Positions 11,541 through 47,206 of a stretch of DNA of 64,000 bases are shown here, in pieces. The stretch's first letter is position 1, and every line of letters starts with the position of its first letter. The translations under genes were made by a program, and so were the position numbers. The notes under the pieces are model-generated. The model worked only from the letters and a program-made list of their open reading frames with translations. It made no database searches and was not told the DNA's origin. Source of the stretch: Legionella micdadei. GTDB taxonomy: Bacteria > Pseudomonadota > Gammaproteobacteria > Legionellales > Legionellaceae. The stretch is from the NCBI RefSeq assembly GCF_000953635.1, contig NZ_LN614830.1, positions 1,727,001-1,791,000 on the forward strand. Reading direction: 5' to 3'.

Positions 11541-11557
11541 AAGTCTGATTATTGTGA
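11541..11557 (+). repeat. attL core, 17-bp direct repeat
   Basis: AAGTCTGATTATTGTGA is identical to the copy at 47174-47190; the base on each side differs. Here the left half of the palindromic bacterial site is joined to phage sequence, so the right half-site of the palindrome is absent. The repeat begins exactly on a codon boundary of the frame that continues into the C-terminal part of the replication initiator. Confidence 0.85.
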
Positions 11558-11918
11558 AAACAAAGAGAGCAATAAAAATACAAAATGTGGCACAAAAACT
11601 GTTTTAACGCTTGAAGACTTAAGAGCTGACAATCCTTTCAATTTGCCGGTCGAGATGCTTGCTGACTGGTTAACTACTCGCAATAAGAAACGTGCTCCGA
11701 TAACTCCTACTGCATGGAATAAAATCAAGAAAGAGCTTTGGAAGTGTGAACAGCAAGGCATAAATCCCGTTGATTCTTTTGAAACCATGGTTGCAAGTGG
11801 CTGGCAATCTTTACGTTTCGAATGGTTTCAATTTACTAAACCTCAGTCATCATCGGGAATTAATAATTTAAGCACCGACTGGGGCAAGAATTTTTATGAA
11901 AATGAGTTAGGGTTTTAG
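11541..11918 (+). CDS. C-terminal half of split O-like replication initiator
   Basis: The frame is open from a stop codon at 11538-11540 through the att core and ends at 11918, giving 125 codons. The only internal starts are TTG 11643 and ATG 11655, but protein-like sequence (VLTLEDLRADNPFNLP) continues upstream of them, so this is the tail of a longer protein. The tail resembles the C-terminal module of phage replication proteins that contacts the helicase loader. Joined at the 17-bp repeat to the right-end gene, it completes a 320-aa protein in the same frame. It is 1 base from the P-like gene. In the prophage it is probably not expressed as a functional protein. Confidence 0.8.
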   Translation, partial: KSDYCENKESNKNTKCGTKTVLTLEDLRADNPFNLPVEMLADWLTTRNKKRAPITPTAWNKIKKELWKCEQQGINPVDSFETMVASGWQSLRFEWFQFTKPQSSSGINNLSTDWGKNFYENELGF

Positions 11919-11919
11919 C

Positions 11920-12633
11920 ATGGAAAAAATAAGTGATGTCATTGATTCGAAGACTTTTCTCGAGCGTCGTCAAGAGCAAGAAATAAAAAAAGATTTAGAT
12001 CCTTCGTCAGTTGCCGTGGTAAATCGTCTATTTGTATTTTTTGAAACGATATGCAGAGGATTTGAGAAACAATATCAGGGCAATCAGAAAAAAATTGATA
12101 ATGAAAAATCTCAATGGACTAGAGCGTTTATGGATTCAGGAATTAATCGCATTGAGCAAATTAGCATGGGCGTAAAACGCTGCAGACTTGAGAGTCCAAT
12201 CAACACGCCAACAATTGGTCAGTTTCTTAAATGGTGTAAGACTTCAGAAGAAGATTACGATCTGTTGCCTAAAGAAATAGCTTATATCAAAGCTTATGAT
12301 TTATTACGAAACGGTGAATTGCAAGGATTATCCACTGAGCAGTTTTCAGTAATTCATCATGCGCTTGAGCAAAGTGATAGATATTTCATGAAAACGAATA
12401 GTCGAGAAAAGACACAACTTGTTTTTTATCGTAATTATGAAATCGCAATTAGAGATTTTCTAAGCGGCAAGCTTAAGCCTATCCATCGTGCAATTGAAGA
12501 TAAACGAGATGAACAGAGTGAGAAAGAGAAACAGAATTATATTGCTAAATATTATCAGCACTGTAAGTCAAATGATCATTTCAGAACACAAATGCAACTA
12601 ATACTAGGAGATAGTTTGAAATGGCATTCTTAA
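11920..12633 (+). CDS. Lambda P-like replication protein (helicase loader)
   Basis: A 237-aa protein with the lambda gpP-type core. Visible matches are SQWTRAFMDSGINRIEQISM and NTPTIGQFLKWCK (95-107), which correspond to the region of gpP with the PSPGQFVAWC motif. In lambda, P brings the host DnaB helicase to O bound at the origin. The start follows the O-like stop by 1 base, showing translational coupling. In the integrated state it is cut off from the promoter region and the first half of the initiator at the other end of the prophage. Confidence 0.8.
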   Translation: MEKISDVIDSKTFLERRQEQEIKKDLDPSSVAVVNRLFVFFETICRGFEKQYQGNQKKIDNEKSQWTRAFMDSGINRIEQISMGVKRCRLESPINTPTIGQFLKWCKTSEEDYDLLPKEIAYIKAYDLLRNGELQGLSTEQFSVIHHALEQSDRYFMKTNSREKTQLVFYRNYEIAIRDFLSGKLKPIHRAIEDKRDEQSEKEKQNYIAKYYQHCKSNDHFRTQMQLILGDSLKWHS

Positions 12634-12827
12634 CAGATAGTGAGTGCAAAAAAATAATTTTTAATATTGGCAGAGAACTTAATTTGCCACCAAAGCTAAT
12701 TTCAACGCGTCTATTAGACGATTTTGATAAGGACGCTATGAGAGAAGGGTTGTTGGAGATCTCTATCCTAAAACGATTTGTGGAAGTTTGGCGAGATATG
12801 GGAATGCCAGACCAGGTTTTAAAATAA
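12621..12827 (+). CDS. Hypothetical phage protein, 68 aa
   Basis: The start overlaps the end of the P-like gene by 13 bases. The product is mixed helical, with no cysteines in clusters and no membrane segment. No family is recognised. Position corresponds to the nin region of lambdoid phages. Confidence 0.65.
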   Translation: MAFLTDSECKKIIFNIGRELNLPPKLISTRLLDDFDKDAMREGLLEISILKRFVEVWRDMGMPDQVLK

Positions 12828-12855
12828 TAAAATTTACCGCTGGGGATGGTAAGAG

Positions 12856-13062
12856 ATGGCTAAATATAAATCATATGAGTGTTATTTTTGTCATAGTGTT
12901 CGATTGCAACCAGGTCGTACATGTCAAAGCTGTGGGGCTAGGACTTTAGTTGCGGCGAACAAAAATAACAAGCGTTCGAAAGTTAATGGGAATTATGAAG
13001 AGAAGTATAGCAATTGGCGCAAGTACACGGATTTTTTAACGGAAGATAATTTAAGCGATTGA
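12856..13062 (+). CDS. Small zinc-ribbon phage protein
   Basis: A 68-aa protein with two CxxC pairs, C9/C12 and C23/C26, spaced as in a zinc ribbon, followed by a basic and then an acidic tail. It may bind DNA, RNA or RNA polymerase; a late-gene regulator is possible given its place between the replication and packaging genes, but that is a guess. Confidence 0.65.
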   Translation: MAKYKSYECYFCHSVRLQPGRTCQSCGARTLVAANKNNKRSKVNGNYEEKYSNWRKYTDFLTEDNLSD

Positions 13063-13122
13063 GTTTTTGTGTTATTTATGCGCTGTGTTATTATTTTCTA
13101 AACTCAAAGGCAGGGATTGTTT

Positions 13123-13371
13123 ATGCTTTGTTATCGATGTAAGGGAACGGGTAAATATTTTGGTAATGGGATGATACAAACTGATTGCGATAAATGTGAT
13201 GGTTATGGGAATAGTTGGAGTGAAAATGATAGCGATAATTTATCGCATCGTAGCATTGATAAACGTAGTAAAGCGTATAAAGATGCAATTAAAGACATTA
13301 TGAAATTAGATCCAAAAATATCTCGGCAGGAAGCTGAGAAAATGTTTCAAAAAACGTACGATAAAATTTGA
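13123..13371 (+). CDS. DnaJ-type zinc-finger small protein
   Basis: An 82-aa protein whose N-terminus carries two CxxCxGxG motifs, CYRCKGTG (C3, C6) and CDKCDGYG (C22, C25), together a minimal DnaJ cysteine-rich zinc site. The rest is charged and helical. The ATG at 13123 is preferred over an in-frame TTG at 13117 because AAAGGCAGGG lies at a suitable distance. No J domain is present. Function unknown; such small zinc proteins are common near the packaging genes of phages. Confidence 0.65.
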   Translation: MLCYRCKGTGKYFGNGMIQTDCDKCDGYGNSWSENDSDNLSHRSIDKRSKAYKDAIKDIMKLDPKISRQEAEKMFQKTYDKI

Positions 13372-13386
13372 TTTGAGAGGTTAAGG

Positions 13387-13857
13387 ATGACCGGTAAAGC
13401 AAAAATGGGAGCTCCTACAAAATATTCTAAAGAGCTTGCCGATAAGATTTGTAAATTAATAGCCACTAATCCAGTAGGATTGACAACTTTAATAAAATTG
13501 CACAATTTGCCTGATAGACAAACAATTTATAATTGGCTTAATCTATATGGTGACTTTTTCGACAATTATATGCAAGCAAAAAAACAACAAGCTCATGTAA
13601 TTGCTGATGAAATGCTTGAAGTACATAATGATATTCCGACTTATTTTGATAAAGATGGGAATGAGAAAATTGATAACGGAATGTTAGGAAGATCTAAATT
13701 AAAAATGGAAGCTTTGCGCTGGAGTGCTGCACGATTAAACCCAAAATGGTATTCTGAAAAAACAGTTAATACTGATGATGGAAAAGATGATGAAATGGAC
13801 AAAGATTTAGAGCAGCGCCGTAAAGAATTAGATCAAGAATATAAGCGAGAATGTTGA
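13387..13857 (+). CDS. Terminase small subunit
   Basis: A 156-aa protein. The N-terminal part (GAPTKYSKELADKICKLI, then DRQTIYNWL) is a helix-turn-helix typical of small terminase subunits of this type, which recognise packaging sites in the genome. A middle helical oligomerisation segment and an acidic/basic C-terminal tail follow. Its partner, the large subunit, is about 3 kb downstream, separated by an unusual insert of an RNA-like element, leftward genes and a recombinase. Confidence 0.75.
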   Translation: MTGKAKMGAPTKYSKELADKICKLIATNPVGLTTLIKLHNLPDRQTIYNWLNLYGDFFDNYMQAKKQQAHVIADEMLEVHNDIPTYFDKDGNEKIDNGMLGRSKLKMEALRWSAARLNPKWYSEKTVNTDDGKDDEMDKDLEQRRKELDQEYKREC

Positions 13858-13987
13858 TTTAATATTGCTAAACGAACAAATCTGCCAAGCTTCTGTTTAC
13901 CACTCCATGAGCAGACTGCAGGTTTTAGCGCTAATCCTTTGCTTCCAGCCCTGAAGCGCGCGAATGGGCATTTATAAGGATTTTTTA

Positions 13988-14113
13988 ATGACTATAAATG
14001 ATTTTATTCAAAATGTTTTTGGTTTCTTTTTTGTATTGATATTTTTTCTATTATTTATTGCTCCAGCTGCATTTCTCGGATTGTTGTCGCCGTTTTATAG
14101 CAAAGATAAATGA
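13988..14113 (+). CDS. 41-aa single-pass membrane peptide
   Basis: MTINDFIQNVFGFFFVLIFF opens a 41-codon frame with one long hydrophobic helix and a short charged tail. AAGGA lies 8-9 bases before the ATG; the same AAGGATTTTTTAA leader precedes other genes of this prophage. It could be a small holin or an accessory membrane protein. Its stop overlaps the first stem of the RNA-like element that follows. Confidence 0.5.
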   Translation: MTINDFIQNVFGFFFVLIFFLLFIAPAAFLGLLSPFYSKDK

Positions 14114-14308
14114 AAGTAGCGGCGTGGTTTAGGGACACGCGAAAAGAGTGAGTGATAGCAACCCCTTGCATTGATGACGGTCGTTAAACACCTGGATTGT
14201 AGGCCACGAATTCCATTACGGCAACATGACTTAGTTGCTTTGAGAAATGCAAGTGTTACTGGCACCAGGCCACGCTATGAGCAGGTGCAATTCCTGCCTA
14301 CTTTCACC
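14112..14308 (+). ncRNA. Structured RNA candidate with tRNA-like ends
   Basis: The ends pair as an 8-bp acceptor-like stem: GAAAGTAG (14112-14119) with CTACTTTC (14298-14305). Directly inside the 3' strand is a T-arm-like hairpin, GCAGG-TGCAATT-CCTGC (14281-14297), a 5-bp stem with a 7-nt loop. Further stems: GCGTG/CACGC (14122-14140), alternatively GCGTGG/CCACGC (14122-14127 with 14270-14275), CTTGCATT/AATGCAAG (14165-14172 with 14246-14253), CCTGG/CCAGG (14191-14195 with 14265-14269) and GCAAC/GTTGC (14221-14238). A T-run follows at 14312. There is no recognisable anticodon arm and it is too long for a tRNA, so it is called only as a structured RNA. Confidence 0.55.
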
Positions 14309-14334
14309 TAATTTTTTTTATATTGAGGTGTATT

Positions 14335-14718
14335 TTGGAAATTAAAATTACAAATAAGATTCAACAGCAAGTTCAACACGTTTTAAGAGAATATAAAGAA
14401 AATGAATTAGAAGACGAATTGATAAGCCTTGTTCTGCAATGGTGTAGTGAAGCTTTGATTATGGGTTCTACACATTCAGAAAAAATAGATTCTGCTATAC
14501 AAGTAAATGACATTGTTCAATTAGACCCAGAAAAAACACGTAATAAAATGTTTGCCGGCTGCTTTATGGTTGTAAGTGAAATAAAATCCTGGGGTGTCCA
14601 AGGATATGTACAAGCTTTAGGAGAAAACGGGAAACAAGGTGGGCAAGCTTATTATCGAGCAAAATATGAAGAAATTGTCAAGGTAGGAAAAGCCGAATGG
14701 GTTGTTAACAATTTTTAG
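14335..14718 (+). CDS. Hypothetical phage protein, 127 aa
   Basis: Translation most likely begins at TTG 14335, with GAGGTG 5 bases before it; an in-frame TTG at 14323 would add four residues but lacks a site. The N-terminal 50 residues are helical, and the C-terminal half (from about 65) looks like a small beta domain of the kind seen in many phage structural or regulatory proteins (AGCFMVVSEIKSWGVQGYVQ). No family name can be given. Confidence 0.6.
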   Translation: MEIKITNKIQQQVQHVLREYKENELEDELISLVLQWCSEALIMGSTHSEKIDSAIQVNDIVQLDPEKTRNKMFAGCFMVVSEIKSWGVQGYVQALGENGKQGGQAYYRAKYEEIVKVGKAEWVVNNF

Positions 14719-14729
14719 GATTGCGGACG

Positions 14730-14828
14730 TCAATAAAAGGCTCTCTCTTGCCTCAGGAAGGCCGATTGCTTAATTTGTATTAGTTGACCGAACGTTAAAA
14801 GTTTAGTTTCTTCTTCTTCATTATGCAT
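14730..14828 (-). CDS. Possible 32-aa peptide
   Basis: Frame MHNEEEETKLLTFGQLIQIK continues to 32 codons. AAGGATG precedes the ATG, and the frame begins 17 bases after the stop of the 115-aa gene, so it looks like the last member of a short leftward operon. Acidic N-terminus, basic C-terminus; no family. Confidence 0.45.
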   Translation of the reverse strand: MHNEEEETKLLTFGQLIQIKQSAFLRQERAFY

Positions 14829-14845
14829 TTTACATCCTTAATTCA

Positions 14846-15193
14846 TTAATGTTTTTCACCGCAACAACTGCCGCATTCGCCATGCAAATGATGGCTTTCT
14901 ATTTCATTAGCCATTGTGCGCATTAATTTAATTGCGGATTCAACAGCTTGTCCAGATGTATATTCGTTGGCTCCTGATTTCACTGCTTTTTCAATTTCAT
15001 GGCTTAAACCACCGCCGATCGAAGAAACAAATTTTGCCGTCAAATGAACAATCAAATTATCTACAGGAGATTCAAAATCAAAAAGTTCTAACCATCTTTT
15101 AATAAATAGATAATGCGCTTTACTGTTTTCTATAAGTAAAGATTTTGCAGCTTTTATCTTTTCATCTTCGTTTAAGTCGTCTAGCATATTCAA
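14846..15193 (-). CDS. Hypothetical phage protein with C-terminal cysteine cluster
   Basis: A 115-aa protein, mostly helical and acidic at the N-terminus, ending in HLHGECGSCCGEKH, a histidine/cysteine cluster that might bind metal. It belongs to a leftward cluster (14730-15712) inserted between the terminase subunits. No family recognised. Confidence 0.6.
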   Translation of the reverse strand: MNMLDDLNEDEKIKAAKSLLIENSKAHYLFIKRWLELFDFESPVDNLIVHLTAKFVSSIGGGLSHEIEKAVKSGANEYTSGQAVESAIKLMRTMANEIESHHLHGECGSCCGEKH

Positions 15194-15272
15194 TTCCTTA
15201 ATTTAATTTAACGAGATAACTGGATACGAACACAACGCGTTTATTAACATTCTAAATATCTACTATAAAATT

Positions 15273-15614
15273 TTAATAATGAGATATTGGGTTATACCAA
15301 ACCCCGTTCGGATGTCTTCGACTTGCTTCTAATAATATGTTTAAAAAAATAACAAATGTGTAAAAAGCGCGCTCTAAATCATCATGAATTGATTGAGTAA
15401 AATTGTTCGTTTTCAAACTGAGTATTTCAATTGCATGGCTCAATACTTCTACCGCTTCTTTACCCGTCAAGCCCTCTAAATTGAAATTTTTAGTAGAATC
15501 TGGATAAATTGATAGCCAAATTTTTTCAACATCAAAGTCATAATGATAACGTTCTATGATTTCAAAATGACCCCATTCTGTGACGCACTTATCAGCGATG
15601 TATAAATCAATCAT
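15273..15614 (-). CDS. Hypothetical phage protein, 113 aa
   Basis: Start at 15614 is preferred because its ATG overlaps the stop of the upstream 33-aa frame (ATGA), a sign of translational coupling; an upstream start at 15650 is possible. The product is mixed alpha/beta with a hydrophobic segment near the C-terminus (FYTFVIFLNILLEASRR). No family recognised. Confidence 0.55.
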   Translation of the reverse strand: MIDLYIADKCVTEWGHFEIIERYHYDFDVEKIWLSIYPDSTKNFNLEGLTGKEAVEVLSHAIEILSLKTNNFTQSIHDDLERAFYTFVIFLNILLEASRRHPNGVWYNPISHY

Positions 15615-15712
15615 AATGAAGATAAATAATAATCGTACAATGATTGACATAATACAAAAAGCATAGTTATTACTAAAGCAATAATAGTAATGTTATCAAT
15701 AATATTTTTCAT
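15611..15712 (-). CDS. 33-aa single-pass membrane peptide
   Basis: MKNIIDNITIIALVITMLFV opens a 33-codon frame made largely of one hydrophobic helix. Its stop overlaps the ATG of the next leftward gene by ATGA. No good ribosome binding site is seen. It might be a small lysis or membrane accessory peptide. Confidence 0.4.
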   Translation of the reverse strand: MKNIIDNITIIALVITMLFVLCQSLYDYYLSSL

Positions 15713-15780
15713 AAGTGTCATTAAGACTTAAATGAAAGCATTTAATCATCATTGAGATTAATTATCCATCGCCTTTCTCA

Positions 15781-15894
15781 TTATTCTGTCTCCTGTGTTG
15801 AATTAGAACGTTCTTTCAACCATTGGTGAACCTCGTCGCTGAGCCAGCCAACACTATTTTCAGCAAGCTTAATACGTTTTAAAAAAGGTACACG
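15781..15894 (-). pseudogene. Truncated AlpA-like regulator remnant
   Basis: A 37-codon open frame bounded by stops and without a start codon reads RVPFLKRIKLAENSVGWLSD and then EVHQWLKERSNS. This matches the C-terminal half of AlpA-type regulators, including the intact copy at 44410 (PKRVRISPNHVGWRSDEIYQWLEERSNER). The N-terminal helix-turn-helix half is missing, so it is a decayed duplicate. Confidence 0.6.
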
Positions 15895-15947
15895 TTATCT
15901 TAGAAAATCTAATTTTGCATTTTAATATAAAAATAATCACAAAATAG

Positions 15948-15974
15948 ACCTTTTTTTATATTTTAAAAAAAGGT
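15948..15974. promoter_or_regulatory. AT-rich palindrome upstream of the 69-aa coiled-coil gene
   Basis: ACCTTTTTTTA (15948-15958) and its exact complement (15964-15974) form an 11-bp inverted repeat with a 5-nt spacer, 30 bases before the ATG at 16005. It could be an operator or a weak bidirectional terminator for the leftward cluster's upstream side. Confidence 0.35.
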
Positions 15975-16004
15975 ATGCTGCGCTCATAAAAAAATGAGAC
16001 GTAA

Positions 16005-16214
16005 ATGAGCAGTTTTACAAAAGCAGAAGAAAATTATATTGATTATGAAGTTAAACTAAGGGTTCATGACGCTTTGTTTAAGCATATTGATTATAAATTT
16101 GACAAACTTGAACAGAAAGTTAATAAAATAGATCACAAATTTAATTTGGCTATTGGACTAATAATAACTTCTATTATTATACCTGTCGTTCTACATTATT
16201 ATGTATTGCTTTAA
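16005..16214 (+). CDS. Small coiled-coil protein with C-terminal membrane anchor
   Basis: A 69-aa protein: charged helical N-terminus, a heptad-like segment (KFDKLEQKVNKIDHKFN) and a C-terminal hydrophobic helix (LAIGLIITSIIIPVVL). The layout is shared with small proteins at 27709, 41987, 43106 and 43512. Function unknown; a tail-anchored membrane protein is likely. It sits just before the recombinase gene. Confidence 0.6.
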   Translation: MSSFTKAEENYIDYEVKLRVHDALFKHIDYKFDKLEQKVNKIDHKFNLAIGLIITSIIIPVVLHYYVLL

Positions 16215-16226
16215 TTAGGTTAGCTT

Positions 16227-16784
16227 ATGAATCATCAAACAGTGGGGTATATTCGTGTATCATCTCAGAGTCAAAATACTGCAAGGCAATTAGCAGGTAT
16301 CAAGTTAGATAAAGAGTTTGTCGATGTGGTCACAGGAAGTATCAAAGAAAGAACTAACTTGCAAGCATGCATTGATTATATCAGAGAAGGCGACACGCTA
16401 GTTGTTGATAGTATCGATAGGCTTGCTAGAAATTTGCGCGATTTGCAAGAAATAATTCAAACAATTGTAAAAAAGGGCGTTGCTGTAAAATTTATCAAAG
16501 AAAATCTTACCTTTACATCACAGCAAGACCCGATTGCAACTTTAATGCTGCATATGATGGGTGCTTTTGCAGAATTTGAGCGAAATATGATTCGTAATCG
16601 CCAAAGAGAAGGCATAGATCTCGCAAAGAAAAAAGGAAAACACTTAGGTCGTCCTCCCGTTGACATGAAGCTAAGCGCAAAAGTAAAGGAATTGAAGAAA
16701 AAAGGGCTAAGTATTGCATCAATTGGTCAAGCGATAGAAAAATCTGCACCAACTGTCTATAAATTGTTGCGACATAATGATTAA
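16227..16784 (+). CDS. Small serine recombinase (resolvase/invertase type), candidate integrase
   Basis: A 185-aa protein of the resolvase/invertase class. The catalytic serine is S12 in GYIRVSSQSQN, with R10 beside it; DSIDRLARNLRDL and AEFERNMIRNRQREG hold other active-site arginines and the dimer helix. A C-terminal helix-turn-helix covers about 148-183. It lies 42 bases before the large terminase gene. No other recombinase is found in the prophage, and the attachment core has resolvase-like half-sites, so it may carry out integration. Alternatively it could be a multimer resolvase or a DNA invertase, but no inverted pair near the tail genes was noticed. Confidence 0.85.
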   Translation: MNHQTVGYIRVSSQSQNTARQLAGIKLDKEFVDVVTGSIKERTNLQACIDYIREGDTLVVDSIDRLARNLRDLQEIIQTIVKKGVAVKFIKENLTFTSQQDPIATLMLHMMGAFAEFERNMIRNRQREGIDLAKKKGKHLGRPPVDMKLSAKVKELKKKGLSIASIGQAIEKSAPTVYKLLRHND

Positions 16785-16826
16785 ATAGCGACAAAGCGAT
16801 TGATTGTTAAAAGGATTTAATAAAAG

Positions 16827-29607: not shown

Positions 29608-30110
29608 TGGCAGCAGAACCCTTACAATTACAAGCAATATTTCCAGACCTGCCAAGAGAAGTTCCCGTTATCAATAAAGACGGGGATTTCAGCCCATTGT
29701 GGAGTCTTGGTTTATCTTCATTGTTTCAAGCGCTTCAAGAAAATTTTTCAAATGAAGGTATTTTATTTCCGCGATTAAGTGCAACGAATATAGCCAATAT
29801 CCAGACTATTTATACTCCCTTGATTGGTTCTCCATTACCACAAAATATACCTGATATAAGTGGCAAGACAGTTTTTGATACAACCAATCGTGTCTCGAAG
29901 CAATTTGTTATAACATATGACAATGCGAATCCGCCGAATATAGTGGCAGCACAGTGGAATATTTTAAGTTATTTGGTTTTGGGTTCTGGTAATCCGAATG
30001 GAGCTCAAGCAGGACAAGTATCTTGGTTTTATTATGATTTAACAGGTCATGCATTATACATTTGCACGACATCTGGCAGCACAGGAGGTGCTGTCTGGAC
30101 AGCGATTTAA
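29607..30110 (+). CDS. Phage structural protein sharing a C-terminal module with the fibre at 35560
   Basis: A 167-aa protein. The C-terminal 60 residues (GSGNPNGAQAGQVSWFYYDL, then HALYICTTSGSTGGAVWTAI) match residues 55-105 of the 413-aa fibre at 35560 (NPNGSLAGTTYQFCWD ... LLWICTTSGTSSTAVW). This module is common in fibre and collar proteins of podoviruses. Probably a tail or collar component. Confidence 0.6.
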   Translation: MAAEPLQLQAIFPDLPREVPVINKDGDFSPLWSLGLSSLFQALQENFSNEGILFPRLSATNIANIQTIYTPLIGSPLPQNIPDISGKTVFDTTNRVSKQFVITYDNANPPNIVAAQWNILSYLVLGSGNPNGAQAGQVSWFYYDLTGHALYICTTSGSTGGAVWTAI

Positions 30111-38382: not shown

Positions 38383-38743
38383 AGTTCTTAAATCAGGTGA
38401 TATTTCAGAAGAACATATTCATAAAACAGTCATCCAATGGATCAACCTACATCCTTCAATTAAAAATTTAATTATGCATTTTCCGAACGAAGGAAAGCGC
38501 ACATGGTATTTCGGAAAACTTTTAAAAGACTTAGGATTAAAACGGGGTGTTTTTGATTTATTTATTGCAATGCCTCGCCATGGATTCCATGGAGCTTGGA
38601 TTGAACTTAAAAGCAAAAATGGAAAATTAAGCTGTCATCAACGTTCATTTATGAATGACATGAGGCAGCAAAATTATTATGCTGCCGTTTGTTATTCTAT
38701 TGATGAAGCCATTGAACAAATAAAGTGGTATTGTTTTGAATAA
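38375..38743 (+). CDS. VRR-NUC domain nuclease
   Basis: A 122-aa protein with the PD-(D/E)XK-type VRR-NUC pattern: D61 in RGVFDLF and E77/K79 in AWIELKSK, followed by GKLSCHQRSFMNDMR. Phage VRR-NUC proteins are thought to resolve branched DNA during replication or packaging. It overlaps the endolysin end by 8 bases and ends the plus-strand block, facing the leftward early genes. Confidence 0.8.
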   Translation: MSKVLKSGDISEEHIHKTVIQWINLHPSIKNLIMHFPNEGKRTWYFGKLLKDLGLKRGVFDLFIAMPRHGFHGAWIELKSKNGKLSCHQRSFMNDMRQQNYYAAVCYSIDEAIEQIKWYCFE

Positions 38744-38797
38744 TTAACCATATCCAAAACCATGACTATCAATATCATTATGGACATTGACCGAGTC

Positions 38798-39127
38798 TTA
38801 GCCATAGCCCGAGCCATCACCCGAGCCAAAGCCATCGCCAGAGCCAAAGCCCGAGCCAAAGCCATCGTCCCAGCCAAAGCCCGAGCCAAAGCCATCGTCC
38901 CAGCCAAAGCCCGAGCCAAAGCCATCGTCCCAGCCAAAGCTCAAGCCAAAGCCATCGTCCCAGCCAAAACCCAAGCCAAAGCCATCTTCCGAGCCAAAGC
39001 CATCGCCAGAGCCATAGCCCCAGCCAAAGCCATCTTCCGAGCCAAAGCCCGAGCCATCACCCGAGCCATCGCTCGAGATCGAGCCCGAGCCATAGAAATT
39101 AATTAAATTATTATTTTTTTTCATCAT
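38798..39127 (-). CDS. Gly/Asp/Phe repeat protein
   Basis: Minus-strand frame of 109 aa whose ATG overlaps the stop of the upstream gene by ATGA, so this strand is preferred over the Ala/Lys-rich frame on the plus strand. After MMKKNNNLINFYGSG the product is made of short repeats such as SGFGWDDGFG. Similar repeat proteins follow DUF6948 genes in other phages. The repeats suggest an unfolded or beta-roll, acidic protein; function unknown. Confidence 0.55.
   Translation of the reverse strand: MMKKNNNLINFYGSGSISSDGSGDGSGFGSEDGFGWGYGSGDGFGSEDGFGLGFGWDDGFGLSFGWDDGFGSGFGWDDGFGSGFGWDDGFGSGFGSGDGFGSGDGSGYG
38821..39000. repeat. Six 30-bp tandem repeat units
   Basis: Units of 30 bp start at 38821, 38851, 38881, 38911, 38941 and 38971; the three at 38851-38940 are identical and the others differ at a few positions. 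Each encodes ten residues (for example SGFGWDDGFG) on the minus strand. The units also share shorter GCCAAAGCC and CCATCG parts, so they grew by duplication. Copy number may vary between isolates. Confidence 0.85.
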
Positions 39128-39426
39128 AAATTTACTTTCCAAATGGGCACTTCATCAATTGATTTTTTTGCCTGTACAGTTGTATTTATTATTTCTATAG
39201 CTTCTAGCAATTCGATACGATCTACAGCGCAAGGAAACTTGCAATTTTGAGGTCTTTTAACACCCTCCATGGCCAATTGACTTAATGATGCTGCTCCGTC
39301 CCAATACCACAATCTTCTTGCATTTTTCAAAACAACTTCTTGTCCATCTCTTGATTCAATTTGACCAAAAAATACTCCAGCACTATAAGTTCTTACAATT
39401 ACCCATTCATGATTGTATGATTTCAT
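39124..39426 (-). CDS. DUF6948-type phage protein
   Basis: A 100-aa protein with the conserved pattern VIVRTYSAGVFFGQIESRDG and ARRLWYWDGAASLSQLAMEG, a small beta-rich phage domain of unknown function. It stands in a leftward operon behind the DUF669 protein and is coupled to the repeat protein by ATGA. Confidence 0.75.
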   Translation of the reverse strand: MKSYNHEWVIVRTYSAGVFFGQIESRDGQEVVLKNARRLWYWDGAASLSQLAMEGVKRPQNCKFPCAVDRIELLEAIEIINTTVQAKKSIDEVPIWKVNL

Positions 39427-41404: not shown

Positions 41405-41599
41405 TTAATTACTTTCTTGATTTAATAAATCGTCAATTGCTTCGTCTGGAGTATTTCCTATCCCAATCGCATATGAAGAAACCCAAGAATCATCAATGAA
41501 CTCTGCATCGTAATTCTCACAAACAGCAGCCCATTCGCTGCTGTAAGGATTGTATTGACTTACATAAAATTTTCTTTCATTTCGTATCATCACAGTCAT
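41405..41599 (-). CDS. Hypothetical early phage protein, 64 aa
   Basis: First gene of the leftward early operon. GAGGTGTAAAA stands before the ATG, nearly identical to the leader of the next gene. The product looks like a small alpha/beta domain similar in style to HicB-type antitoxin folds (FYVSQYNPYSSEWAAVCENY ... GNTPDEAIDDLLNQ), but there is no HicA partner. Confidence 0.5.
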   Translation of the reverse strand: MTVMIRNERKFYVSQYNPYSSEWAAVCENYDAEFIDDSWVSSYAIGIGNTPDEAIDDLLNQESN

Positions 41600-41745
41600 T
41601 TTTACACCTCACTGTTAGTTGATGAGGATATTAAATAATAAGCATATGTTACATGTCAATATATGTTTATTAAATTTTTATTTGCTATTGTTGTATTTAT
41701 TAAATATATGTATATTTCGTCTATAAAAACGAACATAAAAATGAA
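41600..41745. promoter_or_regulatory. Divergent early control region
   Basis: About 145 very AT-rich bases separate the leftward recombination operon from the rightward Cro-like gene at 41746. Repeats of TATATGT, TTTATTAAAT and ATATATG are present and may hold promoters and operators on both strands; no single site is certain. Confidence 0.35.
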
Positions 41746-41946
41746 ATGACAATAGACGAATCAATAAAAAAATATGGAAGTGCCTATGGAGTATGTAAGG
41801 CTCTAGGAGTATCTCCTCAAAATTTTACACGTTGGAAAAAACAAGGATGGATCCCCCAAGCGCAACAATTAAGATTAGAAAAAATAACTAATGGCGAATT
41901 AAAAGCCGATGAGTTTGGTCCAGATAGGAGACCGATTAAGAAGTAA
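41746..41946 (+). CDS. Cro-like HTH repressor, copy 1
   Basis: A 66-aa protein with a Cro/YdaS-type helix-turn-helix: GSAYGVCKALGVSPQNFTRW, then KKQGWIPQAQQLRLEKITNG. Paralogues are at 42789 and 45816. Divergent from the recombination operon, so it probably represses one or both directions. Confidence 0.75.
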   Translation: MTIDESIKKYGSAYGVCKALGVSPQNFTRWKKQGWIPQAQQLRLEKITNGELKADEFGPDRRPIKK

Positions 41947-41986
41947 AGAACTATAATAAAAATATCTATATTGTGAGCGAGAAATT

Positions 41987-42313
41987 ATGATGTCTAAAAA
42001 AAATTATGATGCAGTCAATGAAGAAACACGAATAGCATTACTTGAGCAGTCTATCGGTTATATCTATGAATCATTACGTGATCTTAAGGATTCAATTAAA
42101 TCTCTTGATTCTAAAATGGAAAGTAGATTTGATAAAGTTGATGATAAATTTGATAAAGTTGATGATGAATTTGATAAAGTTGATGATGAATTCAAGAGTA
42201 TTCGACAAGAATTTAAAGACGTTCATAAAGAGATTAAACATAATCTTTTTTGGACTATTACGGCTTTTGCAGGGGTTCTAGGGCTTATTGCCCATGCGGT
42301 AAAGTGGATTTAA
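41987..42313 (+). CDS. Coiled-coil protein with C-terminal membrane anchor, heptad repeats
   Basis: A 108-aa protein. Residues 5-25 (TRIALLEQSIGYIYESLRDL) are shared with the proteins at 43106 and 43512. Then follow three nearly exact 7-residue units FDKVDDK/E, matching 21-base DNA repeats near 42130-42190, and a C-terminal hydrophobic helix (LFWTITAFAGVLGLIAHAV). Such proteins might tether to the inner membrane; function unknown. Confidence 0.6.
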   Translation: MMSKKNYDAVNEETRIALLEQSIGYIYESLRDLKDSIKSLDSKMESRFDKVDDKFDKVDDEFDKVDDEFKSIRQEFKDVHKEIKHNLFWTITAFAGVLGLIAHAVKWI

Positions 42314-42365
42314 TTATGACTTTCGTTTCAAATTAAAAAATCATCTTTTGAATAGAAGGCCATCA

Positions 42366-42485
42366 ATGAATTTAGATAATAAGGAAAAATCAAATATTTC
42401 TCATTCTGAAATAATTCCACCAAAATTAGGAAGCAAACATTTTGGAAAAATACTGGTTCATTACAAAATTCCTCTTTATAAGTAA
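42366..42485 (+). CDS. Possible 39-aa protein
   Basis: A 39-codon frame (MNLDNKEKSNISHSEIIPPK ...) in the gap between two small genes; the stop is 5 bases before the next ATG. No clear ribosome binding site. No family. Confidence 0.35.
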   Translation: MNLDNKEKSNISHSEIIPPKLGSKHFGKILVHYKIPLYK

Positions 42486-42490
42486 ACAAA

Positions 42491-42706
42491 ATGAACGACA
42501 ATAACAATAATAAACATCCTAATCCTGCATTACTTGAAAGGTTTCTTTCAGTACAAGAGAAAGAATTAGTAATGCGTGGTAAAGAATTAGAAATCCAACA
42601 GCAGAATGAAAATAATGCTCACGAATATGCTAAAGCATCTTTACAGGCTAATAAAGAAGATAGGGAATTGTTAGTTGATGAGGTAATAATAGCAAACCTT
42701 AGTTAG
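42491..42706 (+). CDS. Small helical phage protein, 71 aa
   Basis: Begins MNDNNNNKHPNPALLERFLS and continues as a charged helix (QEKELVMRGKELEIQQQNEN). It looks like the N-terminal part of longer phage membrane proteins (DUF2335-like) that end in two hydrophobic helices, which are missing here, so it may be truncated. Confidence 0.5.
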   Translation: MNDNNNNKHPNPALLERFLSVQEKELVMRGKELEIQQQNENNAHEYAKASLQANKEDRELLVDEVIIANLS

Positions 42707-42788
42707 CTGTCAATTGCTAGCTAATTTATTTATTGCTTTACCAGAATAGCTAATGTTTATATACTTCACGAATATTAACTAATACGTA

Positions 42789-43016
42789 TTGAATATGACT
42801 ATTGATGAGGCTTTAAAACATTTTAGAAGTGGATATGAGCTTTGCAAAAAAATAGGGGCTCATACTGCTGCATTCACAAGATGGAAAAAGCAAAATTTTA
42901 TTCCAGTTACGCAACAGTTAAAGATCAACGAAATAACTGGCGCTAACATGCCTATTGATTTAGATAGGGAAGCAATGGAAAAAAGATTAGAAAACATTGA
43001 GAGAAAACGATGTTAG
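42789..43016 (+). CDS. Cro-like HTH repressor, copy 2
   Basis: A 75-aa paralogue of the 41746 protein (RSGYELCKKIGAHTAAFTRW, KKQNFIPVTQQLKINEITGA) with a longer basic C-terminus. Three such genes in one phage are unusual; each is followed by coiled-coil/membrane genes here, as if the unit had duplicated. Confidence 0.7.
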   Translation: MNMTIDEALKHFRSGYELCKKIGAHTAAFTRWKKQNFIPVTQQLKINEITGANMPIDLDREAMEKRLENIERKRC

Positions 43017-43078
43017 ATTGGTTGTTAAAAGGAAAAATAAGAAGTATAGAGCAGCGGTTTACTGAAAAAGTCATATAA
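43010..43078 (+). CDS. Possible 22-aa peptide overlapping the Cro-like gene
   Basis: ATG at 43010 overlaps the end of the Cro-like gene and opens MLDWLLKGKIRSIEQRFTEK, ending after 22 codons. Translational coupling is possible. Too short to support further. Confidence 0.2.
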   Translation: MLDWLLKGKIRSIEQRFTEKVI

Positions 43079-43105
43079 TTTAATTAAGCTGTAAAGTGAG
43101 GGTAT

Positions 43106-43450
43106 ATGGCCATGACAAATAAAAAGGGCAGCACAGAAGTCAGCTATAGTGGAGACACTAGGTTGGCTCTCCTTGAGCATACTATTAATGATATCAATAA
43201 GACATTAGAGCGTTTTGAAAAGCGGTTTGATCGACTTGAAGAAAAAATTGACTCGCAGTGGGGAGCTATGAATTCTAAAATAGATTCTCAAAGTTCTTCC
43301 ATAAATTCTAAAATAGATGGTCAAAATTCTTCTATAAATTCTAAAATAGACTCTCATTATCGCACTACAATAAACATGCTTCTTGGTCTTTACGGCGGCG
43401 TAATAGCTGTTCTAGTAACTGCAATAGGAAAGGCTTATCATTGGTTTTAA
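43106..43450 (+). CDS. Coiled-coil protein with membrane anchor, paralogue
   Basis: A 114-aa protein; residues 14-40 (DTRLALLEHTINDINKTLER) are almost identical to the protein at 43512. A repeated segment (SSINSKIDGQN / SSINSKIDSHY) follows, then a C-terminal hydrophobic helix (LLGLYGGVIAVLVTAIG). Member of the five-protein tail-anchored family of this prophage. Confidence 0.6.
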   Translation: MAMTNKKGSTEVSYSGDTRLALLEHTINDINKTLERFEKRFDRLEEKIDSQWGAMNSKIDSQSSSINSKIDGQNSSINSKIDSHYRTTINMLLGLYGGVIAVLVTAIGKAYHWF

Positions 43451-43511
43451 GGTGTATCATGACCATGAATTATCGCTTGAGTAAAGAATAATGTATTAGA
43501 AAGAGGTAATC

Positions 43512-43742
43512 ATGATGACTAAAAAGACAAAGCAAGAATCAAGTTATAGTGATGACACAAGATTGGCATTGCTTGAACATACAATTAGTGACATCAATAA
43601 AACTTTGGAGCGTTTTGAAAAGCGTTTCGATAAACTCGATGATAAAACCGATTCGCATTTTAAATGGACGTTAATTTTATTTTTTGGTTTATATGTCAGT
43701 ATTGTTGGCGCGATTATAAAGGCATCTCACCTATTCGGTTAG
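43512..43742 (+). CDS. Coiled-coil protein with membrane anchor, paralogue
   Basis: A 76-aa shorter paralogue of the 43106 protein lacking its repeat segment: the shared part DTRLALLEHTISDINKTLER leads to a short linker and a hydrophobic helix (WTLILFFGLYVSIVGAIIKA). AGAGGT precedes the start. The pair arose by tandem duplication. Confidence 0.6.
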   Translation: MMTKKTKQESSYSDDTRLALLEHTISDINKTLERFEKRFDKLDDKTDSHFKWTLILFFGLYVSIVGAIIKASHLFG

Positions 43743-43816
43743 ATTACTTTAAAAACATTTTCAGGAAATAATAAAAATAAAAGTGTAGGGACGTTAAATA
43801 TTTAATGAGATTCATA

Positions 43817-44074
43817 ATGAAAAAAACAATATTTATAGCATGTTTGGCAGCAAGTTCCTTGGCAATGGCAAATTCCACAACTTTTAATTCCAATGGAAGT
43901 ATTTCTAGCACGGTCGATAATAATAATCCCTATGGTAGAAGCTCTACGACATTTAATTCCAATGGGCAAAGTTCTAGTACCTTTTCTGCAGGAAATGGTG
44001 GCTCGATAACATTCAACTCTGATGGAAGTTCCTCTAGTACTTATGCGACTAACAATCCATATGGACGAAGATAA
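43817..44074 (+). CDS. Small secreted Ser/Asn-rich repeat protein
   Basis: An 85-aa protein with a clear signal peptide (MKKTIFIACLAASSLAMA, cleavage probably after AMA or AMANS). The mature part repeats STTFNSNG and SSST motifs and NNPYGR. An in-frame ATG at 43805 would add MRFI and is less likely. Its presence in a lysogen points to a conversion (moron) gene acting in the periplasm or outside. Function unknown. Confidence 0.6.
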   Translation: MKKTIFIACLAASSLAMANSTTFNSNGSISSTVDNNNPYGRSSTTFNSNGQSSSTFSAGNGGSITFNSDGSSSSTYATNNPYGRR

Positions 44075-44131
44075 TTCATAATGGACTGCTATTTATAAAT
44101 AAAAATGATCCATCCTAAATTATAAACACCT

Positions 44132-44154
44132 TTATCCCCAGAAATTGGGGATAA
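44132..44154. other. Perfect hairpin downstream of the secreted-protein gene
   Basis: TTATCCCCA (44132-44140) and TGGGGATAA (44146-44154) form a 9-bp stem with GAAAT loop. No T-run follows. It may protect the mRNA end or act with the terminator at 44212. Confidence 0.45.
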
Positions 44155-44211
44155 GTCTGTAAAAGAGAGGAAAGGCTTGTTAAACTTCATTTTTCCAGCT
44201 TATAAAAAAGT

Positions 44212-44262
44212 AACCCACCGGTTTGAGGATGCTCATTGAACATAGCCTTGGTGGGTTTTCTT
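44212..44262. terminator. Bidirectional terminator
   Basis: AACCCACC (44212-44219) pairs with GGTGGGTT (44250-44257); the plus strand continues into TTCTT, and the minus strand continues into a T-run (complement of AAAAAAG at 44204-44210). It lies between the rightward secreted-protein gene and the leftward AlpA gene group. Confidence 0.65.
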
Positions 44263-44276
44263 AATTACATTATCGT

Positions 44277-44402
44277 TTATTTTAACATTTTTTTATTAGA
44301 ATTATCTCTACTGCTTTGAGCAGTAAACTTCCATAACAAGTCTTTGTTATTTTTAGAGGCCATCGGCTCTAACGGTGGCCTTCTATTACTTCCACTCATC
44401 AT
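44277..44402 (-). CDS. Small basic protein downstream of AlpA, 41 aa
   Basis: Starts MMSGSNRRPPLEPMASKNNK, with AGGAG 5 bases before the first ATG. It directly follows the AlpA-like gene in the same direction and ends near the bidirectional terminator, so it looks like the second gene of a two-gene operon. Basic; no family. Confidence 0.5.
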   Translation of the reverse strand: MMSGSNRRPPLEPMASKNNKDLLWKFTAQSSRDNSNKKMLK

Positions 44403-44409
44403 TTGTCTC

Positions 44410-44601
44410 CTATCTTTCATTTGAACGCTCTTCTAACCACTGATATATCTCGTCACTTCTCCATCCAACATGGTTTGGTGAAATACGCACTCGTTTAGGG
44501 AAGAGACCTTTAGATTCCCAACGAGCCAATGAAGAGCGTGAAGGTAACGGTTTAATAGGTAGTTCTTCATAGCCAAAAACTAAAAGGGGTTTTTGCAGCA
44601 T
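44410..44601 (-). CDS. AlpA-family regulator / excisionase-like protein
   Basis: A 63-aa AlpA-type protein: PLPSRSSLARWESKGLFPKR is the helix-turn-helix and wing, and VGWRSDEIYQWLEERSNER the conserved C-terminal half. The ATG at 44601 has AAAGGA before it; a TTG upstream at 44628 is less likely. AlpA proteins activate or assist prophage excision in other systems. Decayed copies are at 15781 and 44728. Confidence 0.75.
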   Translation of the reverse strand: MLQKPLLVFGYEELPIKPLPSRSSLARWESKGLFPKRVRISPNHVGWRSDEIYQWLEERSNER

Positions 44602-44910
44602 GTTTTTTCCTTTAACTTTATTAACCAAGCTAAAGTATGGCGCCGCATAAGTAATGAAGTCACGTGAAGCTATGCCCGCGAAACGTATCTAAAAATTTAC
44701 TTCACTTTCAATGGTAGAAGCCAATTTTCAATAATGTGGCTTAATCCTTTGGTGAACCTCGTCTGAAAATATAAAATGTTTTTGGACTTGCATATTTTAC
44801 ATTTCCTACATAACATCAATTTTTTAATTAAAAAAGTTGTCTTTTAAACTATGTATTATTCAGCGAAGCTAGTTAATAGTCGTTGAGCTCTTAGATCTTA
44901 TGTCTTACAC
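44602..44910. other. Intergenic region with AlpA fragment
   Basis: About 310 bases without an intact gene. On the minus strand at 44728-44766 a 12-codon piece reads SDEVHQRIKPHY, matching the AlpA C-terminal signature and sharing the DNA GTGAACCTCGTC with the remnant at 15781. The rest is AT-rich and should hold the promoters of the two flanking genes. Confidence 0.45.
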
Positions 44911-45111
44911 TTGAAAAACAAGAAGCTTATAAAAAATACAAACATGACGGATCAAAATAACATCAAGATAAACAAGGATATACTATCATCAGTGATTAAA
45001 GGTAATCTTAGTGATTACTATAATCAACCTCTTACCCCCGATAATATCAATGTAATTGCGCAACAGCTTATTGAATCAATTGATAACTTTATAAACAAAA
45101 AGGAAGGCTAA
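44911..45111 (+). CDS. Small hypothetical protein, 66 aa (or 55 aa)
   Basis: Open from TTG 44911; ATG 44944 gives MTDQNNIKINKDILSSVIKG. Neither start has a strong ribosome site. Helical; its end overlaps the end of the leftward gene by 4 bases. No family. Confidence 0.4.
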   Translation: MKNKKLIKNTNMTDQNNIKINKDILSSVIKGNLSDYYNQPLTPDNINVIAQQLIESIDNFINKKEG

Positions 45112-45566
45112 TCTTTTTTAGAAAACAACTTTGACCATTTTGATTTTTTGATTTTTTGCTCTTGAGAGGACGTTTCGACCTTTTCTTTGTGTTCTAGTAA
45201 CCGTGCATGACTATTGATAGCATCAAGCATTTTCGATTTCTCTTCCGAAAAATTGTTCAATTGGTCTTTTAAAAACTCAATTTGTTTGGTTTTCTCTTTA
45301 ATCATATCTAACAGATAATTATTTTTTTCTTCGAGTAGCTTTGTTGTAATTTTCTCGTCAAAATTCTCTATTTTTCCTTCGCGTTCTTGGTCTGGCAATG
45401 TCCATGGGAACACTCTAAAAAACTCTGCCTTTTCGATAAAATACTTCTTATTTTCAAGTGTTGCCGAGAGTTTGCCTGCTGTAATCATTTTAACGATTGC
45501 ACGTTGCGTACATTTTAGAAGCTTTGCGGCTTCGGCAGTTGTTATCCAAGTTCTTTGATCATACAT
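45108..45566 (-). CDS. HTH–coiled-coil DNA-binding protein, candidate repressor
   Basis: A 152-aa protein. Residues 5-50 (TWITTAEAAKLLKCTQRAIV, KMITAGKLSATLENKKYFIE) form an excisionase/MerR-like HTH; residues 75-130 are a long coiled coil, and the C-terminus is lysine-rich. It diverges from a Cro-like gene across an operator-like region, the position of cI in lambdoid phages, although it is not a CI/LexA-type protein. It may be the lysogeny repressor or a partition/excision factor. Confidence 0.6.
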   Translation of the reverse strand: MYDQRTWITTAEAAKLLKCTQRAIVKMITAGKLSATLENKKYFIEKAEFFRVFPWTLPDQEREGKIENFDEKITTKLLEEKNNYLLDMIKEKTKQIEFLKDQLNNFSEEKSKMLDAINSHARLLEHKEKVETSSQEQKIKKSKWSKLFSKKD

Positions 45567-45815
45567 AGATTTTATTCCTCATCGTTCTTACATGTTCTTT
45601 GCAAAATTTTAATAAAAAGTTTATTTTTTGCACTTTGTATTATTAATCTTATCTTTGTTTACAAAAACTACATGATAAGAAATAAAAAATTGACAAATTC
45701 AAAAAAAAGGTTTTTATTACCTAAAAATAATATTACGAATTTATTAATTGAATTAACTATCAATATTAACTTTACTAGTTAATTATCAAAGTTAGTTTCA
45801 TAAGGCAATCTTTTT
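45567..45815. promoter_or_regulatory. Operator region between candidate repressor and Cro-like gene
   Basis: A 7-bp inverted repeat ATTAACT-TTACT-AGTTAAT (45765-45783) lies about 33 bases before the Cro-like ATG, with another AATTAACT half-site at 45751-45758 and an AAGTTAGTT near 45790. Such a cluster of TTAACT/AGTTAA half-sites suggests a shared operator controlling both divergent genes. No experimental support. Confidence 0.5.
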
Positions 45816-46013
45816 ATGTTACTTGATGAACTATACGCATATTATAAATCATGGACAGCATTAACTCGCGATCTTAAATTCGGGTTCAATACTTATCAGG
45901 GTTGGAGAAAGAAGGGGTATATTCCCTATGCAACGCAATTATTAATTGAAAAAAAGACGAATGGTCGTTTTAAAGCAAACGAACGTCATGCAAAGCCCCA
46001 AAGCGATTCATAA
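45816..46013 (+). CDS. Cro-like HTH repressor, copy 3
   Basis: A 65-aa Cro-like protein (KSWTALTRDLKFGFNTYQGW, RKKGYIPYATQLLIEKKTNG) placed like cro: divergent from the candidate repressor and upstream of the replication genes. ATAAGG precedes the ATG region. Third paralogue in the prophage. Confidence 0.7.
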   Translation: MLLDELYAYYKSWTALTRDLKFGFNTYQGWRKKGYIPYATQLLIEKKTNGRFKANERHAKPQSDS

Positions 46014-46170
46014 TTCAATTCTATTACAAATCAATCTTGCTTAGCTGGAGATGGAGAGGTATATTGATCTCATTTCTAGCTCGCAGTTCCTTGAATGTTT
46101 AAAATCAAGTCAGCTACTAGAATTTTCTGAGTAGAGTAGAGGCATCCCAGCCCCTCTATAAAGAAACCAC

Positions 46171-46210
46171 CGCTTGAATGCACATCCGGCAAGATCACTC
46201 ATTCAAAGCG
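46171..46210 (+). promoter_or_regulatory. Hairpin in the leader of the Ash-like gene
   Basis: CGCTTGAATG (46171-46180) pairs with CATTCAAAGCG (46200-46210) with one bulged base around a 19-nt loop. It is 15 bases before the Ash-like ORF. In P4-like elements the ash/icd region carries regulatory RNA hairpins (CI RNA), so this may be a comparable leader element. Confidence 0.4.
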
Positions 46211-46224
46211 TTTATTAACTTAGG

Positions 46225-46599
46225 ATGTGTTACGCGAATCCTCACATAACAGGCGCCACACATTCAAACCTAGTAAGGGCTTTTATGCATAACGCACACG
46301 GCAAACGCAAAAACTCCAAAGGAGGCTTTCATGTTTGGCGACAACGCATTAACCAAAAATCCAAGGAAGCTTTTATGATTAACGCAAACGCATTATACAA
46401 TGAATGTGTAGTAAATCAAAATATAACTATAACACATTCATATTTCAAATCTTTATTTTCATTGTTTTTCAAATTTATTCAAACTTCATCCATTAAACCG
46501 ATTCAATCCACATGCGCCAAAATTTTTACCTTTGGTATTTCTCTATTTTTTTCACTTAAGTTTTATGCCGTAAGGAAGGATTTTTTAAATGACAATTAA
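46225..46599 (+). CDS. Ash / Icd-like phage protein
   Basis: A 124-aa frame with the pattern ANPHITGATHSNLVRAFMHN and AHGKRKNSKGGFHV, which is the hallmark of the Ash/Icd-like proteins of P4-type and lambdoid elements in enterobacteria. The C-terminal half is divergent. The end overlaps the O-like start by 11 bases. In P4 this region combines coding sequence and regulatory RNA; here the DNA contains three related GCTTT(T/C)ATG segments (46277, 46326, 46371). Whether the protein is made is uncertain. Confidence 0.55.
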   Translation: MCYANPHITGATHSNLVRAFMHNAHGKRKNSKGGFHVWRQRINQKSKEAFMINANALYNECVVNQNITITHSYFKSLFSLFFKFIQTSSIKPIQSTCAKIFTFGISLFFSLKFYAVRKDFLNDN

Positions 46600-47206
46600 A
46601 AAAAATACGCCCCAATTTTTGAGGCAATCAGGTTTATCCTTTACAACTATAATTAATCAAACTATGGATATTATTGACGATCCCGCTTCACTCGGAATTT
46701 ATTGTTATCTCGCATCAAAACCAGATAACTGGGAAATTAATAACAAAGAACTTCAATCGCGTTTTAATAAAGGCTTTGATTTTATTAAAAAACGTTTAGC
46801 CGACTTGAGGGAAAAAGGACTAATAAAAAAATCGGCTGTTCGAAATGAGACCACAGGTCAAATTATGAGATGGGAGATTATTCTTGTTAATTACCAGGAG
46901 GCGGAAAATCCACCTTCTAGTGAATCCAGAAAGGGTAAAACCCAGAAGGTGGATTTTCCACCCGGTGGAAAAACCGAATCTAATAATAATATAAATATAA
47001 AAATAAAAGATAATATTAATAATATAAGCGCAACTAATGCTGCACACCATTTTGTCGATAATGATTATGAGGTTCTTGATTGTGATTCCACTGATAATGC
47101 TGATTACTCCAATAATCAGACCAATGACCAAGGAACAGAGCTTAAAACCCATACGGGTAAAACAATCCCAAATAAGTCTGATTATTGTGATAATCAGACA
47201 AAATAA
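46589..47206 (+). CDS. N-terminal half of split O-like replication initiator
   Basis: AAGGA precedes the ATG. Residues 1-105 are a phage winged-helix replication domain (FTTIINQTMDIIDDPASLGI, YCYLASKPDNWEINNKELQS, DFIKKRLADLREKGLIKKS). Residues 106-195 are a polar linker whose DNA holds origin-like repeats and the att region. In the prophage the frame runs 10 codons past the attR core start, giving an abnormal end (KSDYCDNQTK, 205 aa). In the excised circle the frame passes instead through attP into the sequence at 11541 and gives 320 aa. The truncated form keeps the DNA-binding domain and might act as an origin-blocking protein. Confidence 0.8.
   Translation: MTIKKNTPQFLRQSGLSFTTIINQTMDIIDDPASLGIYCYLASKPDNWEINNKELQSRFNKGFDFIKKRLADLREKGLIKKSAVRNETTGQIMRWEIILVNYQEAENPPSSESRKGKTQKVDFPPGGKTESNNNINIKIKDNINNISATNAAHHFVDNDYEVLDCDSTDNADYSNNQTNDQGTELKTHTGKTIPNKSDYCDNQTK
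46900..47035. other. Candidate replication origin inside the initiator gene
   Basis: A 16-bp inverted repeat (GGAAAATCCACCTTCT at 46903-46918, complement at 46944-46959) is followed by an overlapping palindrome TTTTCCACC-C-GGTGGAAAA (46954-46972), giving three to four copies of a GGTGGAAAA/TTTTCCACC iteron. Right after it, 46981-47030 is almost pure A and T. Iterons followed by an AT-rich unwinding tract within the initiator gene is the layout of lambda ori. Confidence 0.6.
47099..47199. other. Two resolvase-like inverted sites, att core and accessory site
   Basis: Core: GTCTGATTA (47176-47184), 6-base spacer TTGTGA, TAATCAGAC (47191-47199). Accessory: CTGATTA (47100-47106), 6-base spacer CTCCAA, TAATCAG (47113-47119). 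Centres are 78 bp apart. Half-sites are close to the TGTCTGATAAT half-site of Tn3-type res sites. Extra half-site-like sequences (CTGATAAT at 47091, GTCGATAAT at 47054) lie to the left. The central dinucleotide of the core, GT, is not self-complementary, which would give the crossover a direction. Confidence 0.55.
47174..47190 (+). repeat. attR core, 17-bp direct repeat
   Basis: Second copy of AAGTCTGATTATTGTGA. Here the palindrome is complete because the bacterial right half-site (TAATCAGAC) follows. Starts on a codon boundary (codon 196) of the initiator gene, the same phase as attL. Confidence 0.85.

Follow-up and report, generated by a model that had tools for sequence, protein, structure and literature searches.

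A tailed prophage at the chromosomal dif site of Legionella micdadei whose integration probably splits a replication initiator gene

The element LME-1, which is also mentioned in PMC5025774, integrates at the Legionella dif site (PMC9765430); in L. pneumophila this site is recombined by a single tyrosine recombinase, XerL (Nicholson et al., PMC9765430). In the integration-dependent immunity of mycobacteriophages of the BPs group, the phage attachment site (attP) lies within the repressor gene, integration by a phage-encoded integrase truncates the product, and the truncated form is active (PMC4557955, PMC9934374). In the archaeal provirus SNJ2, replication depends on an operon and an open reading frame (ORF) spanning attP, both made by circularisation, so that excision licenses replication (PMC13107129). 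The available passages of PMC11472951 report no intact prophages in the L. pneumophila strains studied. In the present analysis a tailed prophage was recognised in a 64,000-nucleotide stretch of the L. micdadei chromosome (Legionellaceae; assembly GCF_000953635.1, contig NZ_LN614830.1, positions 1,727,001 to 1,791,000 of the forward strand; hereafter the window), inserted at the site for separating copied chromosomes. It extends from 11541 to 47190, irrespective of strand, and was delimited by a flanking 17-bp direct repeat and the phage gene families between the copies. It is likely that the attP of this phage is a dif mimic within its replication initiator gene (O), that XerL recombines it, and that the initiator is split by integration.

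Like LME-1 and the integrative mobile elements exploiting Xer (IMEXs), the window prophage is integrated at dif and carries a partial dif mimic (PMC9765430, PMC5071653) and, as in LME-1, an intact dif lies at one end and a modified dif at the other (PMC9765430). The 22-bp attachment site of LME-1 comprises both arms in part, whereas the 17-bp core described here comprises one arm; in the window, moreover, a tailed phage is involved, and its attachment site lies inside the initiator. No statement that the LME-1 site lies in a gene was found in the available passages of PMC9765430 and PMC5071653. Of the IMEX features, the dif mimic (17/17) and the seat at chromosomal dif were found, and integration by a host Xer protein would fit the candidate XerL gene that is present. 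The BPs phages share with the window an attP in a phage regulatory gene, truncation of its product by integration and a coupling to the phage state (PMC4557955, PMC9934374), but the gene split in the window matches initiator families, not a repressor, and its truncation is predicted to be inactivating. SNJ2 resembles the window in the operon and frame formed on circularisation; it differs in that it is a pleolipovirus of archaea, encodes its own integrase and has a Rep of the rolling-circle type, the gene for which (orf19) is not described as split by attP in the available passages of PMC13107129.

As originally predicted, the repeat, AAGTCTGATTATTGTGA, was found at 11541-11557 and 47174-47190 in the same codon phase. 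Exactly two copies occur in the window, and two matches at up to two mismatches were obtained in 0 of 100 dinucleotide shuffles; the only other 17-mer repeated more than 5 kb apart was at 30060/35812. At the right end, the core begins at codon 196 of a 205-codon ORF (46589-47206, plus strand), whose final codons and stop fall in dif and the adjoining sequence. At the left end, the core begins directly after a stop codon (11538-11540) and opens a frame of 125 codons (11541-11918, plus strand), in which the earliest possible start codon is a TTG at 11643 (residue 35). Similarity to phage O proteins begins upstream of this codon, at residue 9 by profile or residues 21-24 by tblastn, as anticipated for a frame that is protein-like ahead of any start. 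The expected lambda-P-like gene, encoding a putative helicase loader (11920-12633, plus strand; PF06992, E 2.5e-15; phrog_109, E 6.1e-21), starts one base past the stop of this piece, and the O-P order is present at the left end, the O-like piece being followed directly by the P-like gene.

The N- and C-terminal pieces were each searched alone, the joined length of 195 + 125 codons being the sum given in the original prediction. The right piece matched profiles of initiator and DnaD-like families in their N-terminal portions (phrog_186, positions 25-169 of 308, E 7.5e-10; phrog_270, positions 46-171 of 383, E 1.7e-9) and, weakly, HTH_36, in keeping with the initiator-like gene that had been proposed. 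Its relatives comprised eight frames in seven of the other 141 genomes (357, 351, 376, 244, 244, 342, 351 and 153 codons), so that most were longer and did not end near residue 205; four plasmid records also were matched weakly. The left piece matched positions 192-316 of 346 of phrog_678 (E 9e-19), was 39% identical to residues 165-267 of the 269-residue O protein of Pseudomonas phage PAJU2 (AP009624), and had a relative in residues 142-216 of the 282-residue O protein of Pseudomonas phage vB_Pae_U7. Its relatives are C-terminal parts of longer O proteins, not proteins with an N-terminus of their own. The U7 protein matched phrog_270 via residues 1-105 and phrog_678 via residues 1-281, so both kinds of part coexist in one natural protein. 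The lambda-type module of PAJU2 has the same order as the window (repressor, Cro, O, P), but its O is annotated as one continuous 269-codon gene, unlike the split O of the window. These matches supported the view that the prophage ends are probably the N- and C-terminal parts of one O-like initiator; for the window taken by itself, the case rests on profiles, codon phase and gene order.

Judged by its sequence, the attachment site is the chromosomal dif, a point absent from the original prediction. The right-end core is part of a 28-bp near-palindrome (47174-47201, plus strand), a nearly complete dif with 20 of 22 consensus arm bases that is also found in relatives. In all 17 positions the core agrees with one arm of dif and its 6-bp centre. 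The left site (attL; 11541-11557, plus strand) keeps this one arm and the centre, with phage sequence in place of the second arm, as compared with the 20 arm bases of the right site (attR). Identity between the two ends ceases where the 6-bp centre ends, which is the expectation for a tyrosine recombinase. With 1531 bp of the right flank as query, matches were obtained in 43 of 142 genomes, in many solely over window positions 47173-47199. Of 85 family genomes, 41 contain the arm pattern TCTGATTAT-N4-ATAATCAGA once and one contains it twice (42 in all), the other 43 lacking an exact match, and a reversed control gave no matches; 47174-47201 was the sole match of the pattern in the genome of the window. 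The exact dif 26-mer was present in six stretches of the genome contigs collection, including L. londiniensis, L. shakespearei and L. gresilensis. A canonical XerCD dif was rejected as a candidate, the gammaproteobacterial consensus having no match at up to three mismatches in the genome. The claim that the empty site would contain the 17-bp core held in part: the dif of relatives has it, exactly or with centre variants, but no empty site with the window's own flanks was found, the best left-flank match in relatives (80%) lying in another genome of the genus (G020), on a contig other than that of its dif.

The strongest support for the proposed split came from G020, which represents another species of the genus and carries a second prophage, at about 48219-89174 of its contig C26. 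Its terminase is 58% and its portal 43-46% identical to those of the window prophage. In G020, a 256-codon initiator ORF (phrog_11233, E 2.4e-17) contains the dif, which has the codon phase of the window but its centre in the opposite orientation; at the far end, 40 kb away, a related core (16 bases in common), again in this codon phase, opens a frame into a C-terminal piece that is followed by a DnaB helicase, not P. A full-length homologue of 273 residues, also followed by a DnaB-type helicase but with no dif core in its linker, was found on IMG/VR contig L122, and contig L124 carries a second full-length initiator homologue. When searched against 142 genomes, the L122 protein matched G020 alone, in two places: residues 1-160 at C26:48364-48840 (75% identity) and residues 148-273 at C26:88731-89108 (56%); BLASTP against the G020 ORFs gave 77% and 66% identity. 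The full-length hit across the junction that had been anticipated was obtained, for this second phage, in the form of a natural protein that matches both of its ends. In the alignment, the two G020 halves cover residues 1-156 and 174-273 of L122. In a modest AlphaFold2 model of L122 made from five sequences (mean pLDDT 63.9, pTM 0.41), residues 119-163 had a pLDDT below 50 and were predicted to be disordered, between two more ordered parts; the alignment places the core in this low-pLDDT linker. A split gene, dif identity and a shared codon phase are apparent from the DNA of two phages that have different helicase modules. On contig L120, an N-terminal piece 46% identical to that of G020 ends in dif; the contig holds this end alone, the far end lying beyond it.

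A second dif-like site with another centre (47096-47123, plus strand; 18 of 22 arm bases) shares the codon phase of the core and lies 78 bp upstream of it. The left-arm repeat recurs at an identical 78-bp distance in G020 and L120, and no second arm repeat was seen in the 90 bp inspected in L. londiniensis. This site may be an accessory recombinase site or the trace of a duplicated linker. In addition, at six sites spread over five genomes and one record of a named species, dif or a dif-like sequence is followed by a partly conserved block of roughly 100-190 bp (window 47202-47370; L038 1501-1760; L068, L067, L027 and L069). The L038 copy, near position 940874, is a second, degenerate one in the window's own genome. 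This block may mark one end of a further element that targets dif.

In the mechanism that we propose, a temperate tailed phage would carry a dif mimic in the linker of O, and the dimer-resolution recombinase of the host, XerL, would recombine attP with the chromosomal dif. After integration, dif would be almost complete on the right, but just one arm would be good in the left site, a state in which excision should be rare. The initiator would be left in two pieces, a DNA-binding stub from its N-terminus and a C-terminal part that lacks the start, and the helicase loader (P, or a helicase) and the late genes would be placed about 35 kb from the early region, whereas excision would restore a continuous initiator gene and operon. 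Since the gene would be continuous in the circle alone, initiator-driven replication would be possible only after excision, and lysogeny would be physically enforced through the split. An AlpA/excisionase-like protein (44410-44628, minus strand; PF05930; phrog_2790, E 5.3e-6) could act as a directionality factor.

Several results weigh against this mechanism. No excised circle or free form of the prophage was seen, and promoter scans gave no excess over shuffles, which leaves the operon model without promoter support. The right piece (P0001) had no match in phage records and no notable match to PAJU2 O; the left piece (P0002) was found in one of 142 genomes, its own, and a search of the genome contigs collection with it was uninformative; nor did the searches give a natural protein related to the window's initiator over its full length. 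The identification of the candidate host gene as XerL is presumptive, and 12 of 16 dif-bearing viral stretches have no initiator across dif.

The best surviving alternative, which we regard as rather unlikely, is that the initiator was split by integration at dif but the prophage is now unable to excise, so that no switch operates today. The single good arm of the left site and the lack of a free form point this way, as do the two IMG/VR contigs with the window prophage, both of which are integrated copies identical to the window across the stretches compared. A 163-codon ORF of L. londiniensis, weakly initiator-like (phrog_186 only, E 0.0013), also ends in dif, and no neighbouring phage genes were recognised there by eye. 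Such a grounded element is harder to reconcile with the long packaging, head, ejection and lysis ORFs of the window prophage, which are open and match phage families. Moreover, LME-1, with one intact and one modified dif, was still excised in about 1% of cells (PMC9765430). In that element, three substitutions in the downstream site reduced excision of a reporter (PMC9765430).

Six PF00589 matches were found in the genome and none within the prophage, and because the latter has no tyrosine-integrase match, it is probably inserted and excised by the host XerL. The XerL candidate (G000:C1:2747548-2748762) resembles the XerC/XerD models, with scores far below their cut-offs, and was matched in 55 of the 57 family-f1 genomes listed and in 63 of 92 genomes overall, at times several times per genome. 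Multiple matches, some of them fragments, were observed in G025 (seven), G029 (four), G115 (three) and G020 (two), which suggests that XerL relatives are carried by mobile elements. The prophage does carry a small serine recombinase (16227-16784, plus strand; PF00239, E 5.6e-38; phrog_125, E 1.2e-53), a clear resolvase/invertase-family protein with a 41% identical counterpart in the G020 prophage and a member of the same family in L122. That this enzyme, not XerL, performs the insertion is nevertheless improbable: its best family is DNA invertase, L122 has the family yet no dif core in its initiator linker, the site is a dif with a 6-bp centre between arms as used by XerL in L. pneumophila (PMC9765430), and G020 has its second copy of the XerL candidate, 56% identical, inside its prophage. 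Small invertase-type serine recombinases recur in this phage group, at 16227-16784 in the window, 3813-4451 in L063 and 11031-11603 in L122.

Least credible of all is coincidence, with a complete short winged-helix regulator at the right, a decayed fragment at the left and a repeat that is merely adjacent, since, for all that the window halves share no full-length relative within BLAST reach and that an unrelated ORF of about 500 codons in genome G147 shows that long frames can reach dif by chance, one half matches the N-terminal side and the other the C-terminal side of initiator profiles, their phases agree, most frames related to the right piece exceed it in length, and G020 repeats the design with a full-length protein matching both its ends.

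Other dif sites were surveyed in 56 distinct dif-like contexts, obtained from matches at up to two mismatches in the relatives' loci after contexts shorter than 120 bp and duplicates were dropped; one of the 56 is the second site of the window. Frames of at least 150 codons before the site, in the phase of the window, were found in the window (196 codons; 170 for the second site), G020 (199), L. londiniensis (155) and G147 (500). The G147 frame (L157), an unrelated ORF, and an 82-codon frame in G047 (L084) were rejected by eye as initiator cases. Among the 16 dif-bearing viral stretches, a clear initiator across dif was present solely in those of the window (L110) and G020 (L109) and in L120. 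In four of the 12 stretches with no initiator across dif, frames of at least 40 codons run into dif, and these four gave no PHROG match at E 0.05. The notion that attP lies in the initiator of every dif phage was therefore rejected; this is one of several positions among them. In L115, the remaining one of the 16, a DnaB-N-like gene (3834-4493), which also matches an RNA polymerase alpha C-terminal domain, has its 3' end in dif at 4467, in the same codon phase as the other cases. In L108, L114, L116, L118 and L119, dif adjoins lysozyme- and VRR-NUC-like genes when gene order is read by eye, the families having been checked in L116 and L119 only; L107, L112 and L117 fell outside the gene inspection. 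Assignment of the small dif contigs to the Microviridae was rejected, as they carry tailed-phage genes.

The phage families matched within the window prophage comprised the small and large terminase subunits, portal, head protein, head closure, ejection, endolysin, Sak4 and lambda-P, together with the serine recombinase and no tyrosine recombinase. Its terminase relatives in phages were all less than 60% identical, and an Rfam search yielded nothing informative. Low-complexity repeats at 38692-39142 can be read as overlapping repetitive ORFs on both strands.

The original prediction had also held that an attP inside a phage initiator was, so far as known, undescribed. None was found in the titles and abstract openings of the open-licence papers that the literature searches listed, which is weak evidence of novelty, and BPs and SNJ2 are near precedents. 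If the proposed reading is true, integration itself would switch off a replication initiator, alongside the repressor change of BPs and the replication operon formed on excision of SNJ2, and the lysogeny of tailed phages would be tied to the dif/XerL system of the Legionellales. An initiator frame that crosses a dif core in one codon phase would serve as a signature for finding further such phages. More tentatively, a group of Legionella tailed phages may use the chromosome-dimer-resolution enzyme as a replication switch, with the origin silent while integrated and perhaps blocked by the N-terminal stub; this possibility falls somewhat short of an even chance. If it is correct, excision of these phages would be tied to the host terminus and to cell division.

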